Assembly (NCBI GenBank): GCA_015229165.1
Contig: JADGCD010000003.1
Location: 1-41,006 of the forward strand
DNA length: 41,006 nt
Direction of reading: 5' to 3'
Source of the DNA: Nitrospinota bacterium
Lineage (GTDB): Bacteria; Nitrospinota_A; UBA7883; JADGGD01
Part shown: in pieces, positions 2,832-11,508 of the stretch
Layout of the letters: the number at the start of each line of letters is the position of its first letter
Numbering within the stretch: the first letter of the stretch is position 1
Made by a program: the position numbers and the translations under genes
Notes under the pieces: generated by a model
The model's input: only the letters and a program-made list of their open reading frames with translations
Database searches by the model: none
Told to the model about the DNA's origin: nothing

Positions 2832-4691
2832 ATGACGTTCGTCCCCTACGCCGTCTCGTGGAACCTGACCGGCCGCTGCAATCTGGCGTGCGACCATTGC
2901 TACCTCGACGCCAACGCCCGCACCTGCGGCGACGACGGGGAGCTGACCACGGAGCAGGCGATCGACACGGTGGGCCAGATCGCCGCGCTAAACCCCGAAT
3001 CGGTCCTCATCCTGACCGGGGGGGAGCCGCTCTTGCGCCACGACCTCGACCGGATCGTCGGGGCGGCCGCGGCGGCCGGGTTGATGGTCGTTCTGGGAAC
3101 CAACGGCGTCCTGCTCGACCGGAGCGCCGCACGGCGGCTCAAAGAGGCGGGACTCGCCGGTGTCGGCGTCAGTATCGATTCGCTCGACCCCCTGATCCAC
3201 GACACCTTCCGGCGGAAGCGCGGAGCCCTTTCGGCGTCCATGCAGGGGCTCGCTTTCGCCCGCGAGGAGGGGTTAAGCGTCCAGGTGCAGACCACCGTCA
3301 TGCGGTCGAACATCCGGGACATCCCTCTCATCGCCCAGTGGGCCCACCATATCGGCGCGAAGGTCTTCAACCTCTTCTTCCTCGTCTGCGTCGGACGGGG
3401 GGAGCAGATGACCGACATTTCGCCGACGCAGTACGAAGAGACGCTGCGCTGGGCCGCCTCGGAGAAGGACCGCTTTCCCGGCATGATGGTCCGCCCCAAA
3501 TGCGCCCCCCACTTCAAGCGAATCCTCCACCAGAACAACCCGGACGACCCGCTCCTCTCCACCTATGTCGCCGCCTGCCGGGCCGGAACCCACTACCTGC
3601 GGATCACCCCGCACGGCGCGGTGACCCCCTGTCCCTACATGGAGACCCAGGCCGGCTCGCTGACGCGGACCTCGTTGTCCGCCATATGGGCCGACGCGCC
3701 GGAGTTGACCCGGTTCCGCCGCCCCGATTACGAAGGGAAATGCGGACGGTGCCGCTACCGGCTCCTCTGCGGCGGTTGCCGCGCGCGGGCGCTGGCGACG
3801 GTCGGCGACCCGATGGGGGAAGACCAGTGGTGCGTTTACGAGCCGGTCGGCGTCGAGGCGCCCATCACCACCGTCGATACCGACGCCAAATTCGGCGTAA
3901 AAGGTGAAAGCAGCCTGGCGTGGGACGCCGACGCCGAGGCGATACTCGGGAAGATTCCCTTTTTCGCCCGCCCGATGGTCCGGATGGGGGTCGAGCGCCG
4001 GGCGATGGCGGAGAAGGTCGAACGAATCACCCTCGAATACTTCCGGCGCGTCTCCCCCTCCCCCCGGATGTTCGGCGACGCGGCGCCCCCCTCCCCCGTC
4101 ACGGTCGAAACGGCGACGGACGCCGCCGAAATTCCGTGGACGCCGGACGCGAAGGAGCGGGTCTCCCATGCGCCCGAGTTCGTCCGCCCCGGCATCCCGA
4201 AGCTGATGCAGAAACGGGCGTGCGAACGGGGCAAAACGGTCATCGACAGCGCGTTCCTGAGCGAAATCCGGGACGAGTCAATGATGCTGGCCTCCCGGCG
4301 GATAAAGAAGCTCGGAATCGACGAGCTTTCCATGGACGCATGGGACGCGGCGCGGAAGAAGCTTTTCGCCAAATCCCCTGAGAAGATTCAGGTCATCGAT
4401 ACCATCACAGAGCTGCTCAACGGCCGCGAACAGAAGAACGGACCTATCGTCGAACGTTTTTCCGGCTACATGGCCGACTCCCTGGGGAAAAAGCTCGGGT
4501 GGTCGAAAGAAGCGCGCCTGCGCATGGAGCGTGCGCCCGCCTTCGTCCGGGAGAAGGCGGCCCGGGCGGTGGAAGGATTCGCCCGGGAGAACGGATACCG
4601 GATCGTGAACGAAGAAGCATTGGACAAAGCGCTGGCGCAGATGCCTTTTGGCGCCATGACCGGCGCGTCGCCGTCGCCCGACCGGACGTAA
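2832..4691 (+). CDS. NirJ/AhbD-like radical SAM-SPASM protein with three PCP_red-like repeats
   Basis: A 619-residue protein. The radical SAM core carries the 4Fe-4S motif CNLACDHC (C16, C20, C23) and the SAM-binding TGGEPLL (62-68). A SPASM-type domain follows, with cysteines at 249, 267, 304, 307, 313, 316 and 334 for auxiliary clusters. The sequence style resembles NirJ/AhbD/MoaA-like enzymes of haem d1 or haem side-chain modification. The C-terminal third has three W..(D/E)A....-PxFxR helical repeats (about 364-407, 436-480, 557-603) resembling PCP_red, with a helical insert between the second and third. The start lies 1 base after the USP stop and no good ribosome site is seen, so translational coupling is likely. 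The substrate is unknown; tetrapyrrole or peptide modification are the main options. Confidence 0.85.
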   Translation: MTFVPYAVSWNLTGRCNLACDHCYLDANARTCGDDGELTTEQAIDTVGQIAALNPESVLILTGGEPLLRHDLDRIVGAAAAAGLMVVLGTNGVLLDRSAARRLKEAGLAGVGVSIDSLDPLIHDTFRRKRGALSASMQGLAFAREEGLSVQVQTTVMRSNIRDIPLIAQWAHHIGAKVFNLFFLVCVGRGEQMTDISPTQYEETLRWAASEKDRFPGMMVRPKCAPHFKRILHQNNPDDPLLSTYVAACRAGTHYLRITPHGAVTPCPYMETQAGSLTRTSLSAIWADAPELTRFRRPDYEGKCGRCRYRLLCGGCRARALATVGDPMGEDQWCVYEPVGVEAPITTVDTDAKFGVKGESSLAWDADAEAILGKIPFFARPMVRMGVERRAMAEKVERITLEYFRRVSPSPRMFGDAAPPSPVTVETATDAAEIPWTPDAKERVSHAPEFVRPGIPKLMQKRACERGKTVIDSAFLSEIRDESMMLASRRIKKLGIDELSMDAWDAARKKLFAKSPEKIQVIDTITELLNGREQKNGPIVERFSGYMADSLGKKLGWSKEARLRMERAPAFVREKAARAVEGFARENGYRIVNEEALDKALAQMPFGAMTGASPSPDRT

Positions 4692-6525: not shown

Positions 6526-7560
6526 ATGAGCGGGATGCGGCGCTGGCTGCCGGCTTTTGCGGCGGGGTTTGTCATTCTCGCAGCGACGCCCGCCGCCCGG
6601 GCCGAGACGCGCGAGTTCCGCATGACTATCGAGCAGACCACCATCACCGTGGCGCCCGACCTCGATTACGCGGTCTTCGGCTACAACGGCCAGACGCCAG
6701 GGCCGCTGATCCACGTCCGGCAGGGGGACGACGTGGTCGTCCATGTCACCAACAACACCCTGATGCCCCATACCATCCACTGGCACGGCGTCTACCAGAC
6801 CGACAACTGGCGTCTCGACGGGGTCCCCGGCGTCACCCAGGAGGAGATCCGCCCCGCCGGGGGAACCTTCACCTACCGGTGGAAGGCGGAGAAAAGCGGG
6901 TCGCTCTGGTACCACTGCCACGTCAACGTCAGCGAGCATGTCGCCATCCGCGGGATGTGGGGGCCTATCGTGGTCGATCCCCTCACGCCGACCCCCGAGG
7001 AGAAGCGGGTCACCAAAGAGGCGCTCTTTATGCTCTCGACGTGGGACAGCCACTTCGCCGGGATGTGGGGTCAGGGAGGCGCCCCCCACGACATGCCCGA
7101 TTACTTTTCGGTCAACGCCAAATGCTTTCCGATCACCCACCCCCTTCGGGTGAAGAAGGGGGATGTGGTCCGCTTCCGCTTCTTCGCCGTCGGCATGTCG
7201 ATTCACACACTCCACCTCCACGGCCACGACATGCTGGTCACCCACAAGGACGGGACGCCGCTTCCGCAACCGTACTGGGTTGACACCCTGATGATTGGTC
7301 CGGGGGAGCGGTACGACGCCATCGTCGAGATGAACAATCCCGGACTCTTCATCTTTCACGACCATGTGGACTCCCACATGACCAACAACGGCAAGGACCC
7401 GGGAGGTCCGATCACCATTATCGAGTACGACGGGGTTAAGCGCCCCGATTTCTATATCTGGAAAGACAAGGAATACGACGCCAACTTCTTCTATTCGGAA
7501 TCGATGCGCCGAGGCTACGGCCTGTTCGAATGGAGCGGTTTCAAAGGAAAGGGACGGTAA
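6526..7560 (+). CDS. Two-domain multicopper oxidase (NirK/laccase-like)
   Basis: A 344-residue protein with a signal peptide (1-26, ending in ARA) and two cupredoxin domains. Domain 1 contains HTIHWHG (82-88) and the type-1 copper set WYHCHVNVSEH....M (H130, C131, H132, H138, M144). Domain 2 contains HTLHLHGHDM (227-236) and FIFHDHVDSHM (275-285) but no type-1 cysteine. The type-1 copper is therefore in domain 1 only, as in NirK and one class of two-domain laccases, which act as trimers with trinuclear or type-2 copper between subunits. HWH and HCH histidine pairs favour an oxidase over a nitrite reductase, but this is unproven. It follows the probable Sec-thioredoxin by 19 bases, and its stop overlaps the next start (TAATG). 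Confidence 0.88.
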   Translation: MSGMRRWLPAFAAGFVILAATPAARAETREFRMTIEQTTITVAPDLDYAVFGYNGQTPGPLIHVRQGDDVVVHVTNNTLMPHTIHWHGVYQTDNWRLDGVPGVTQEEIRPAGGTFTYRWKAEKSGSLWYHCHVNVSEHVAIRGMWGPIVVDPLTPTPEEKRVTKEALFMLSTWDSHFAGMWGQGGAPHDMPDYFSVNAKCFPITHPLRVKKGDVVRFRFFAVGMSIHTLHLHGHDMLVTHKDGTPLPQPYWVDTLMIGPGERYDAIVEMNNPGLFIFHDHVDSHMTNNGKDPGGPITIIEYDGVKRPDFYIWKDKEYDANFFYSESMRRGYGLFEWSGFKGKGR

Positions 7561-8603
7561 TGTTCACGGAGTACATGAGCCCGGTCATCTTGCGACCGGA
7601 AGGATCGCGCACGACCCTGCTGACGGCGGCGCTCCTGGCGCTGGTTGGCCACGGATACGCCTCAAACGCTTCCGCCGCGGCGCCCGGCGTGCGGACCGTC
7701 GATCTGGTCTACGCCGTCGAGGTGACGGGCGCCCCGGTCGGCGCGGGGCCGGTCACCCTCTGGCTCCCCGTTCCCGGCGACGACGAGGACCAGACGACGC
7801 TCGACACCCGCATCGTCTCCCCCTACCCGGTGACGCTGACCAAAGAGACGGAGTACGGCAACCGGATGCTGGTGTTGACCACCGACCGTCTGGACAAAGA
7901 TTCGTTCGCCATCGAGGTCACCTACCGCATCCGCCGGACGGAACACCGGACCGATTTCGCCGCGACCGACGTCCGCGAATCCGTTAATCCCCGTTTCCGC
8001 GCCCCCAGCGCCCATGCGGTCATGAACGACGCGGTCCGCGGCATGGCCAAGGAGGCCGTCGGCGACCGGACTGACCCGCTGGATAAAGCCCGGGCGATCT
8101 ACGACTACGTTCTGGCCCACATGCGCTACGACAAAAGTGTGCCGGGGTGGGGCAAGGGGGACGTGAACCGCATCTGTCTCGCCATCGGCAAGGGGGAGAG
8201 CGGAGCGGGCAACTGCACCGACTTCCATTCGCTCTTCGCCTCGATGATGCAGGCGGAAGGGATTCCGGTGAAGTTCGAGATGGGCTATCCCCTGAAACCG
8301 GGGGAGGAGATGACCACGCCCAATCGGGGCGGCTACCACTGCTGGGCCCGCTTCTGGATCGAAGGAAAAGGGTGGATTCCCGTCGACATCTCCGAAGCGG
8401 CCAAAGATCCATCGAAGCGGGACTACTACTTTGGCGCGCTCTGCGAAAATCGTGTCCGGTTCAGCGTAGGCCGGGATATTGAACTGATTCCGCCGCAGAT
8501 CGGTGAACGGCTCAACTTCTTTGGACCCGACCCTTATATAGAGATCGGCGGCAAGCCGTTCGACGGTTTCTCCCGGACCGTCGCTTATAGAGACGTCGAG
8601 TGA
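7560..8603 (+). CDS. Exported transglutaminase-like superfamily protein
   Basis: Starting at the ATG that overlaps the oxidase stop, the product has 347 residues. A hydrophobic segment at about 18-40 (ending SNASAAA) looks like an export signal. An N-terminal beta domain (about 45-145) precedes a transglutaminase core with the full catalytic triad: Cys219 in GAGNCTDFHSLF, His260 in GGYHCWARFW and Asp276 in WIPVDISEA. Bacterial exported members are mostly papain-like peptidases or amidases rather than cross-linking enzymes. It is the last gene of the operon; a 600-base gap follows. A role in processing a peptide or protein substrate of the pathway is possible but inferred. Confidence 0.85.
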   Translation: MFTEYMSPVILRPEGSRTTLLTAALLALVGHGYASNASAAAPGVRTVDLVYAVEVTGAPVGAGPVTLWLPVPGDDEDQTTLDTRIVSPYPVTLTKETEYGNRMLVLTTDRLDKDSFAIEVTYRIRRTEHRTDFAATDVRESVNPRFRAPSAHAVMNDAVRGMAKEAVGDRTDPLDKARAIYDYVLAHMRYDKSVPGWGKGDVNRICLAIGKGESGAGNCTDFHSLFASMMQAEGIPVKFEMGYPLKPGEEMTTPNRGGYHCWARFWIEGKGWIPVDISEAAKDPSKRDYYFGALCENRVRFSVGRDIELIPPQIGERLNFFGPDPYIEIGGKPFDGFSRTVAYRDVE

Positions 8604-9203
8604 TCCGGATCGTTCTTCATCGCGGCGTGCGGTTTGCGCCGCAACGGAAAGTCAACAACGCAGTCAAACAGGACGACCTTCACTCTCCCCGCCGCATTGG
8701 ACAGGTTAGCGGCGGCTCATCGAAGGTTTTCACCGTCCATTCAGTAAATACCTACCGTTTGCCCTATGGAGATTTTCCAAGGCGGAAGTGAGCTGAAACG
8801 AACAAAGCGCTTTATCGGATATTTTATACCCATCATTGACTGACAAGTCGACGCCAAAAGCTTTTCCACCCTGTTGTCGTCCACCCATTCCGAAGACACA
8901 CCTCCTGACATGTCAGCCCGCTCCTGACATGTCAGGAAGATTCAGTCAATAAGCCTCGACATCTCTCCCCTCCTTTCAGTCGCAATCGACACCCTATCAG
9001 CCGCATGGGGCAATTCACCCTGACAGGCGACCATCGGCGTACTAAATGCAGTTACTCACGGTGTCGACTGTGTGACTGTCGAGCGTTTTCGCCAGCAGTC
9101 ACCAGGCGCAAATGAGAGGAGGAGAAGAGACCGTGACGGATTCCTTGGTCAATGCGTAGGTAAACAACGCAAATGTTTAGATGTCATCAGGCAGGAGGAC
9201 GCA
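8604..9203 (+). other. 600-base intergenic region without a convincing gene
   Basis: No ORF here has coding character; the 63-residue ORF at 8600-8791 has no recognisable features. Base composition is less GC-rich than the flanking genes. The region holds two tandem palindromes at 8902-8937, a weaker relative (CTGACAAGTC) near 8840 and purine-rich stretches before the next gene. No consensus sigma-70 or sigma-54 promoter could be supported by eye. Confidence 0.6.
8902..8937. promoter_or_regulatory. Tandem palindromic operator-like sites
   Basis: CTCCTGACATGTCAG occurs twice (8902-8916 and 8921-8935) with a 4-base spacer, a 19-base period. Each copy contains the perfect 12-base palindrome CTGACATGTCAG; the second extends to the 16-base TCCTGACATGTCAGGA. 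Two identical dyads nearly two helical turns apart, in a gap before an operon, are typical of a pair of dimer-binding operators. The regulator is unknown. Confidence 0.65.
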
Positions 9204-9539: not shown

Positions 9540-9594
9540 GAGAAACCCGATGACCATGACGGATATGCAATTACTCCGGAAAGGAGCATTCACG

Positions 9595-11508
9595 ATGAGA
9601 AGAATCAAAGCCTATACAGGTCTTGGCCTGTTCTTGACGCTCGCGCTCGCCATCGCGTCAGGTTGCGGCACAAATGGCGAGACCGGAAAGTGGCTGGACG
9701 GCTCCCGAGCCCCCGCGCCCACCGTGTCATTCACCCTGCCGCTCAACCTGGCGGTCAATGTGGCGACAAACACGCTGCTCACCGCCACCTTCAGCGAGGA
9801 GATGGACCCCGAGTCCATCAACACGACAACGTTTACCCTGATGAACGGCTCCGAAGTCATTTTGGGGACGGTCGGCTATGCGGGGGTGACTGCGGTCTTC
9901 ACCCCTGCGGTCGCGCTTTCGGACAGCACCACCTACACGGCGACGATCACGGTCGGCGCCAAATCGCGGGCCTATGGAACCAATCTCGATAACAACTACG
10001 TCTGGACCTTCACCACGGCGACTCCCGGCGGCGACATCCCGCCCGATATCACCCCGCCCATTCCCGGCCCCAATCCCGGTCCCTCGCCGGACCTGAGAGC
10101 CCCCCGGGTCACCTCCACGGTCCCCGCCAATCTGGCCACGGAGGTAGCGATCAATACGTCCATCATCGCGACGTTCAGCGAGGCGATGAACCCGCTGTCG
10201 CTTACCACCGCTAGCTTTACCGTGAAAAAGGGACTGGTCACGGTTCCGGGTACGGTTCTCCCCGTGGGGTTGACCGCGGTCTTTACTCCGAACGCCCCGC
10301 TTGACTCGAGCGCGGTCTATACCGCCACGATCACGACGGTCGCCGAGGATCTGGCCGGGAACAACCTAGCGGCCAACTATGTGTGGACCTTCACCACCGG
10401 CGCGCTGGTCGATATCATTCCCCCCACGGTGATCCTGACCGCCCCGCTGAACGGCGCCACCGGAGTGGCGATCAACACCAACGTCGTCGCGACCTTCAGC
10501 GAGGCGATGGCGCCCCTTTCCCTGACGCCCCTTACGTTTACGTTGCACAAGGGACTGGTTTCCATCGGGCATACGGTTCTTCCGCTGCTCGACGTGGCGA
10601 CCCTGAACCCCAGCGCCAACCTTGAGTACGACACGCTCTACACGGCCACCGTCACCGTCGGCGCAAAGGATCTGGCGAACAATGCGATGGTGGCGCCCTA
10701 TGTCTGGACGTTCAGGACCGCAGCGGCCCCGCCCGTCCTCTTCAACCTTGGGATTCTGGCGCCCTACGGCATCGCTTCGGCTGGTGGCGTCACCACCGGC
10801 GCGGCCCCGGTCAAGATCAACGGGAGCACGGTGCTGGATCCGCTCGACCAGTGCAACGCGGTAGCCGTCGGGGCCGCCGATGACTTCGGCCTCTGCGGTG
10901 GAAACCCGCCGCTGAACAACCTCCCGGGGGTCAGGGACTTTGTCATCACCCCCACTCACTCGGCGCCGGGGCCGGTCACTGCGGCTGCGGTGAAGGCTAC
11001 CTTGCTTACCAAGTGGGGAAACCTGTCTCCGGCCGGTCACCCGGGCGGGACGGTGCTGGGATGTGGAACCATCGGTAGCGCCGGAGGCGCGGGCGCCCTC
11101 ATCGGGTGCAACGGCAACTTCACGCTTCCCCCCGGAGTCTATATCTCCCAGACCTCATCGTCGATCGGTGTGGCGGGAAGCCTGGTTCTCGATGGCGGCG
11201 GCGATGCGAACGCCACCTTCATCTTCCAGGCGCCGTCATCGTTGACCACGGCGCCCAATACGACCATCACCTTGCAGAACGGGACCAAGGCCTCGAACGT
11301 CTGGTGGTACGTGGGGAGCTCGGCGACGCTCGGCTCGAATACCGCCTTTAAGGGAAACATCCTGGCTTCCGCCGCCATATCGATGGGAACCACCGCGACT
11401 TCGTGCGGGCGGCTCCTGTCGGGCGCGAGCGGAGCGGGGGCGTTCACCTTCCTGGGGAATACCGTGTCGGTGCCTGGCCATCCCAACGCGCCGGCCGGGT
11501 GCAACTAG
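9595..11508 (+). CDS. Lipoprotein with three Big_5 Ig-like domains and a DUF3494 ice-binding-like domain
   Basis: The ATG at 9595 follows AAGGAG and gives 637 residues starting with a lipoprotein signal (ASGC, Cys24). Three Big_5 Ig-like domains follow (about 41-141, 167-268, 273-373), each with a TFSEEM/TFSEAM strand, a TYTATIT-like strand and a YVWTF end. A Pro/Gly linker separates the first two. The C-terminal about 255 residues match the DUF3494 ice-binding beta-helix pattern (FNLGILAPYGIASAGG, DFVITPTHSAPGPVTAAA, GVYISQTSSSIGVAGSLVLDGGG). The second and third Ig repeats are alike at DNA level with a 321-base period, suggesting duplication. It is surface or outer-membrane located; ice binding or adhesion are both possible. 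Confidence 0.9.
   Translation: MRRIKAYTGLGLFLTLALAIASGCGTNGETGKWLDGSRAPAPTVSFTLPLNLAVNVATNTLLTATFSEEMDPESINTTTFTLMNGSEVILGTVGYAGVTAVFTPAVALSDSTTYTATITVGAKSRAYGTNLDNNYVWTFTTATPGGDIPPDITPPIPGPNPGPSPDLRAPRVTSTVPANLATEVAINTSIIATFSEAMNPLSLTTASFTVKKGLVTVPGTVLPVGLTAVFTPNAPLDSSAVYTATITTVAEDLAGNNLAANYVWTFTTGALVDIIPPTVILTAPLNGATGVAINTNVVATFSEAMAPLSLTPLTFTLHKGLVSIGHTVLPLLDVATLNPSANLEYDTLYTATVTVGAKDLANNAMVAPYVWTFRTAAAPPVLFNLGILAPYGIASAGGVTTGAAPVKINGSTVLDPLDQCNAVAVGAADDFGLCGGNPPLNNLPGVRDFVITPTHSAPGPVTAAAVKATLLTKWGNLSPAGHPGGTVLGCGTIGSAGGAGALIGCNGNFTLPPGVYISQTSSSIGVAGSLVLDGGGDANATFIFQAPSSLTTAPNTTITLQNGTKASNVWWYVGSSATLGSNTAFKGNILASAAISMGTTATSCGRLLSGASGAGAFTFLGNTVSVPGHPNAPAGCN

Follow-up and report, generated by a model that had tools for sequence, protein, structure and literature searches.

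A gene at positions 2832-4691 (+ strand) of the window, the 41,006-nucleotide stretch of Nitrospinota DNA analyzed here, encodes a 619-residue radical SAM/SPASM protein with three PCP_red domains, referred to below as rSAM; the gene ahead of it (1646-2830, + strand) encodes a tandem universal stress protein of 394 residues, USP, with two Pfam Usp domains and a PCP_red domain of its own at the C-terminus. Because this conserved pair travels with a cytochrome bd-like oxidase that appears to be the one named OR-N, it probably helps to build that enzyme; the reading we prefer, with a probability of roughly 0.4, is that rSAM and USP are the central part of a system dedicated to maturing a cofactor of the OR-N oxidase. 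OR-N is a conserved, experimentally uncharacterized terminal oxidase of marine nitrite oxidizers and their relatives, and a set of genes that follows it through many bacterial families puts names to candidate factors that may assemble it or provide a new heme. The component families are already known; judged by sequence and against the open-access literature, the new elements would be the rSAM subfamily, its USP partner, and the link to the OR-N oxidase.

The radical SAM/SPASM protein and its PCP_red domains

The reading frame of rSAM is a genuine gene, with full-length homologs across the class at 53-65% identity. Pfam located a Radical_SAM domain (PF04055) at residues 11-170 (E 2.1e-24, 87 bits) and a SPASM domain (PF13186) at residues 249-307 (E 9.4e-10, 39.1 bits). 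The radical SAM cluster motif CX3CX2C (C16, C20, and C23; 2877-2900, + strand) was invariant across 40 aligned members, AhbD among them; the CAPH motif (C224-H227; 3501-3512, + strand) is common to AhbD, as CAPH, and to NirJ2, as CAPQ; and the SPASM region (3576-3833, + strand) follows the pattern C249...GX4C267...CX2CX5CX2C (304-316)...C334, its seven cysteines being invariant and its third block reading CX2C, not CX3C, in the alignment. Within this region, CX2CX5CX20C is the motif published for NirJ (PMC10548856). None of the radical SAM and SPASM cysteines is lost, which argues for catalysis by rSAM. As for the structure model (pLDDT 84.6), its best PDB match was PqqE (6c8v), over the core only; the PqqE/SkfB/SuiB-type matches of the fold search were likewise confined to the core and uninformative on the repeats.

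Three PCP_red-like repeats behind the core, and a fourth at the end of the adjacent USP, had been proposed in the sequence-only reading, and the PF08369 profile search confirmed them: rSAM as a whole protein scored 105.2 bits (E 1.7e-30) against a Pfam cut-off of 32.5, and USP, also at the protein level, scored 54.7 bits. Taken singly in a genome-wide six-frame search, the rSAM copies gave 49.5 bits (copy 1, 3921-4046), 30.9 bits (copy 2, 4137-4268), and 47.4 bits (copy 3, 4500-4631), and the C-terminal copy of USP (2678-2812) gave 58.6 bits, all on the + strand. Copy 2 alone is slightly below the single-domain cut-off, and it reached 33-41 bits in several orthologs; behind it lies a conserved spacer (4272-4499, + strand) that starts with the motif IRDESMML and is helical in the model. 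Of 23 genomes examined from the class of the window, 22 have the domain. A fifth copy in the same genome is a stand-alone protein of 59 residues (L112 5310-5489, - strand, contig C318), directly behind a MoaA-like gene; similar proteins of 56-57 residues were seen in other Nitrospinota (L137, L138, and L161), several of them adjoining a radical SAM gene.

Over 269 distinct copies of PCP_red, the residues W, A, P, F, R, and E were kept, and no conserved His, Cys, Met, or Tyr was found. This composition makes it doubtful that the domain ligates a metal, led us to reject heme ligation for want of conserved ligands, and makes PCP_red look like a docking module. Direct binding of a tetrapyrrole by the repeats, one of the two roles first suggested for them, is thereby left unsupported; the tetrapyrrole idea rests instead on the enzyme core, with its AhbD/NirJ2 CAPH motif and its position in the tree.

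Until now PCP_red has mostly been recognized at the end of ChlB/BchB, of the dark-operative protochlorophyllide reductase; according to the present data, it is likely to serve for docking as well. The solved domains 2kru and 2l09 (Asr4154) matched the USP copy with E values of 3.7e-07 and 5.1e-05. Unlike ChlB/BchB, rSAM carries the domain three times, on a radical SAM enzyme, and the nitrogenase-like oxidoreductase domain of the reductase is absent among its Pfam matches. Two further architectures were observed: in two genomes that lack the USP/rSAM pair, PCP_red is joined to a stretch rich in cysteine that has a CGGC motif (L223 52-558, - strand; L227 1495-2001, + strand), and a protein of 137-138 residues, encoded close to the rSAM gene (L238 4890-5306; L212 4418-4831), ends in a degenerate PCP_red.

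Identity of the rSAM core

Regarding the family of the core, the best NCBIfam models were NirJ2 (TIGR04055, ∼294.5 bits), AhbD (TIGR04545, ∼277-279.5 bits), and TIGR04053 (253 bits), with cut-offs of 500, 500, and 395 bits, respectively; TIGR04051/TIGR04546 (NirJ/AhbC) gave 170 and 153 bits and missed their cut-offs, and the peptide-maturase models were far behind (PqqE 110 bits, mycofactocin maturase 105 bits). In a tree of 80 radical SAM cores, 49 of them with PCP_red, all 49 PCP_red-bearing cores lay on one side of a single branch (support 100/99); the sister group was NirJ2 of the Clostridial type (Moorellales/Eggerthellaceae), AhbD came next, AhbC/NirJ1 formed a separate branch (100/100), and the TIGR04053 rows also fell on a different one. 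Independent fusions of PCP_red to different radical SAM enzymes were rejected, the tree showing one change, and membership of rSAM in AhbD, NirJ2, NirJ/AhbC, or TIGR04053 was rejected on scores and tree. The initial description of the core as NirJ/AhbD-like was thus right in kind, the NirJ2 and AhbD models scoring best yet below their cut-offs, and the phylogeny agrees with it by setting the core beside NirJ2/AhbD and apart from AhbC/NirJ1.

The extended motif CAPH(F/Y)xR (C224-R230) occurs in AhbD and in the PCP_red clade, NirJ2 has CAPQ, and CAPH is absent from the AhbC/NirJ1 and TIGR04053-type rows of the alignment. By this motif and the NirJ-type SPASM cysteine motif, the active site of the PCP_red-bearing rSAM resembles, as far as sequence can tell, that of heme-type enzymes, but the subfamily is a distinct one. 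It has in common with AhbD the cysteines of the radical SAM and auxiliary clusters, the CAPH(F/Y)xR motif, and a neighboring place in the tree, and differs from it in having a PCP_red tail and a USP partner and in having a true AhbD beside it among the genes of one genome. Clostridial NirJ2 provides the best-scoring model and the sister branch, but it has CAPQ where rSAM has CAPH; the NirJ2-type members examined are without PCP_red, and their genomes are without the OR-N oxidase.

On contig C77, the genome of the window carries separate genes of AhbC and AhbD type, and that AhbD scored 498 bits; a separate AhbD (465-498 bits) was found in all eight Nitrospinota genomes tested and in none of the six Pseudomonadota genomes tested, which argues against simply equating the PCP_red form with the heme b synthase.

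The universal stress protein partner

The reading frame of USP is open from 1466, and its start is most likely the ATG at 1646, which is preceded by AGGAG and is where the orthologs begin; the gene abuts that of rSAM, with one base between its stop codon and the ATG of rSAM. Two copies of the ATP-binding motif G-2X-G-9X-G-S, at residues 130-144 (2033-2077, + strand) and 296-310 (2531-2575, + strand), have invariant glycines; the protein as a whole is unusually conserved, sequences of different phyla being 41-69% identical and some 65 columns showing no variation among 25 aligned sequences. In the PDB, the structure model (pLDDT 84.7) was matched best by 3ab8, a tandem USP with bound ATP (E 2.6e-17). 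Judging by both motifs and by the modeled fold, the partner is a universal stress protein of the ATP-binding type, similar in these two traits to the tandem proteins TTHA0350 and Rv2623 and different from them in its C-terminal PCP_red, its long helical inserts with conserved His, and its fixed rSAM partner.

Among 385 genomes, rSAM was found in 36 and USP in 40, with both in 35, and in a separate test USP was present in all 22 genomes with rSAM. Two genomes (G128 and G266) were USP-only in appearance, through a threshold effect, rSAM being there at lower similarity; two others (G082 and G395) remained USP-only. That rSAM and USP work together is well supported.

Exchange of the PCP_red block

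The block of PCP_red domains has different carriers in different groups: rSAM in Nitrospinota, USP in Nitrospirota, and free-standing proteins elsewhere. Residues 361-547 of rSAM, which comprise copies 1 and 2 and the helical spacer, were 42% identical over 203 residues to the USP tail of Nitrospirota, where rSAM has a single copy of PCP_red and the larger block is on USP; residues 432-604, with copies 2 and 3, matched free-standing PCP_red proteins (186 and 302 residues, in genomes G023 and G028) at 50% over 173 residues and 44% over 176 residues. The best kept part of the exchanged block is copy 2 with the spacer, at 54-58% identity between free-standing and USP-borne forms, and in Gammaproteobacteria the copies number up to four on USP and three on rSAM. 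Such movement of a block from one co-occurring partner to the other is the pattern expected of a physical link, and the PCP_red domains look like portable docking modules; of the roles suggested for the repeats at the outset, this exchange and the co-occurrence of rSAM and USP favor assembly with the USP.

Association with an apparent OR-N cytochrome bd-like oxidase

A CydA-like (OR-N-like) protein was present in 41 of the 385 genomes. Outside the class of the window, USP and the oxidase occurred together in 18 genomes, USP without the oxidase in 1, the oxidase without USP in 2, and neither in 341 (Fisher p 3e-27, where genomes within a family are not independent and the 18 fall into 13 family codes); the contig of the lone genome with USP only (G055) starts inside cytochrome genes. 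Named genomes gave the same picture, the oxidase being in 16 of 18 with the PCP_red-bearing rSAM vs none of five with only AhbC/NirJ2/AhbD-type relatives. The pair and the oxidase lie at most 16 kb apart in more than 20 genomes; in that of the window, the oxidase module is on another contig, C345 (L240). A CydA-like protein was found without any PCP_red protein in G054 (C57:11227-12795) and G091 (C235:540-2168), so the system of the pair is not always needed; these two genomes form a natural control for the contribution of the pair.

The module linked to the pair appears to be the OR-N oxidase, a label that the CydA-like proteins receive from agreement in taxonomy and gene content with published descriptions: a CydA-like protein, cytochromes c, and a cupredoxin-like protein, as in the OR-N CydAA′ oxidase of Nitrospinota and Nitrospirales according to passages of PMC10839748, PMC12342949, and PMC3578206. 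The available portions of these papers describe OR-N as conserved in Nitrospinota and likely cytochrome c-oxidizing (PMC10839748), report it in Nitrospirales also (PMC12342949), and, in the Nitrospina genome paper, term the bd-like oxidase enigmatic, with conserved heme b ligands and no unusual heme reported (PMC3578206); the same portions of the three do not mention maturation factors for it. The open-access literature yielded no description of the rSAM subfamily, the USP partner, or the OR-N link, an absence that is not proof, and nothing tying cytochrome bd-like oxidase, nitrite oxidoreductase, and radical SAM together; it likewise gave nothing relevant on PCP_red itself or on a connection of protochlorophyllide reductase to radical SAM enzymes and USP.

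Gene neighborhoods

In several phyla, the pair recurs beside a Mrp/ApbC-type P-loop ATPase and a Zn-ribbon/PCP_red protein, and also beside the CydA-like protein, a cupredoxin-like protein, and three cytochromes c: one monohaem and two dihaem, one of the latter with a domain of ethylbenzene-dehydrogenase type (EB_dh). Locus L214 has on one strand the Mrp-type ATPase, the Zn-ribbon/PCP_red protein, USP, rSAM, the CydA-like protein, three cytochromes c (one with EB_dh), and the cupredoxin-like protein. The Zn-ribbon/PCP_red protein and the ATPase are found in many of the same genomes as the pair; the former, of 130-180 residues, was seen adjoining the ATPase in L034 (5272-6601), L104 (10863-12128), and L214 (9621-10768). 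In the clusters of Proteobacteria, a HemY-type protoporphyrinogen oxidase follows rSAM (239.8 bits, cut-off 97.85), which fits a porphyrin pathway. As for the window itself, a divergent membrane-anchored cytochrome c with one CXXCH (879-1487, - strand; cluster c11, six loci), which is a neighbor in other Nitrospinota as well, adjoins a thioredoxin/redoxin-type protein (242-829, - strand; Pfam Redoxin, cluster c13).

Proposed function and alternatives

In the maturation system that we favor, rSAM would be an enzyme of AhbD/NirJ2 type whose SAM radical chemistry probably acts on a heme or porphyrin, at one of the propionate side chains, while the SPASM cluster relays electrons; USP, the constant partner, would bind ATP through both of its domains; and the PCP_red domains would dock rSAM, USP, and, in many genomes, the Mrp/ApbC-type ATPase, the last via the small zinc-ribbon/PCP_red protein, so that the cofactor could be made and handed over close to the oxidase. 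A shared chemolithotrophic lifestyle could, however, be the cause of the co-occurrence; the published heme b ligands with no unusual heme (PMC3578206), the oxidase of G054 and G091 without PCP_red, and the separate contig of the oxidase module in the genome of the window also count against this system. A bolder version, tentative and somewhat unlikely, is that AhbD-like rSAM, ATP-binding USP, Mrp-type ATPase, and Zn-ribbon protein, joined by PCP_red, would constitute an undescribed machine that tailors and delivers a tetrapyrrole and supplies a non-standard heme to the OR-N oxidase of nitrite oxidizers, anammox bacteria, and sulfur-oxidizing symbionts.

No new cofactor is needed if rSAM is a second, specialized heme b synthase, an AhbD isoenzyme that decarboxylates coproheme so that cytochrome-rich chains obtain heme locally or at low oxygen; the CAPH and SPASM pattern common to rSAM and AhbD and the HemY-type oxidase that adjoins rSAM in Proteobacteria agree with this, as does the report of ahbD beside hemY/hemH genes (PMC10548856), but the core scores 275-342 bits against the AhbD cut-off of 500 and forms its own clade, Nitrospinota hold a separate AhbD, and both the constant USP and the specific OR-N link would go unexplained, which makes this reading unlikely. 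Enzymes with SPASM domains are mostly peptide maturases, and the target could instead be a residue to be cross-linked or oxidized in an oxidase subunit or in a neighboring cupredoxin or cytochrome. That the fold matches of rSAM are PqqE, SkfB, and SuiB and that FGE-sulfatase-like and cupredoxin-like genes are recurrent neighbors speak for such a maturase; it is made quite improbable by the scores of the peptide-maturase models, far under those of NirJ2/AhbD, by CAPH being a trait of AhbD/NirJ2, and by Pfam reporting no N-terminal peptide-recognition domain on rSAM.

PCP_red is part of ChlB/BchB, accompanies Mrp/ApbC-type ATPases, directly follows a MoaA-like gene, and adjoins a cysteine-rich CGGC-like stretch, all of which would also suit a mark of metal or Fe-S handling, with rSAM (as scaffold or ligand maker), USP, the Mrp-type ATPase, and the Zn-ribbon/PCP_red protein loading a metal centre of the oxidase or the cytochromes; the domain, however, has no conserved Cys or His, and the retention of all radical SAM/SPASM cysteines argues for catalysis, so that we regard this as just as improbable as a peptide maturase. 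Universal stress proteins are often regulators, and USP might be an ATP or redox sensor that switches rSAM or the expression of the oxidase, the fusion being regulatory. Both ATP motifs are intact, and genes for a PAS histidine kinase and a sigma-54 regulator flank the cluster in Gammaproteobacteria, but the very strong conservation of USP over several phyla and the swapping of the PCP_red block between USP and the enzyme leave this the least probable of the alternatives by our estimate.

Further genes of the window and related loci

Additional observations concern genes farther from the pair. The window encodes a multicopper oxidase at 6526-7560, relatives of which lie near the pair in Nitrospirota (L042 and L067), and, at 9550-11508, a protein that combines Ig-like (Big_5) repeats with an ice-binding-like domain. 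Locus L036 encodes a cytochrome-like membrane protein (7639-8607) with CX3CH (TCYKRCH) instead of CXXCH, and in the related loci L033-L035 the same operon holds CcmH-like, CcdA-like, and thioredoxin genes.
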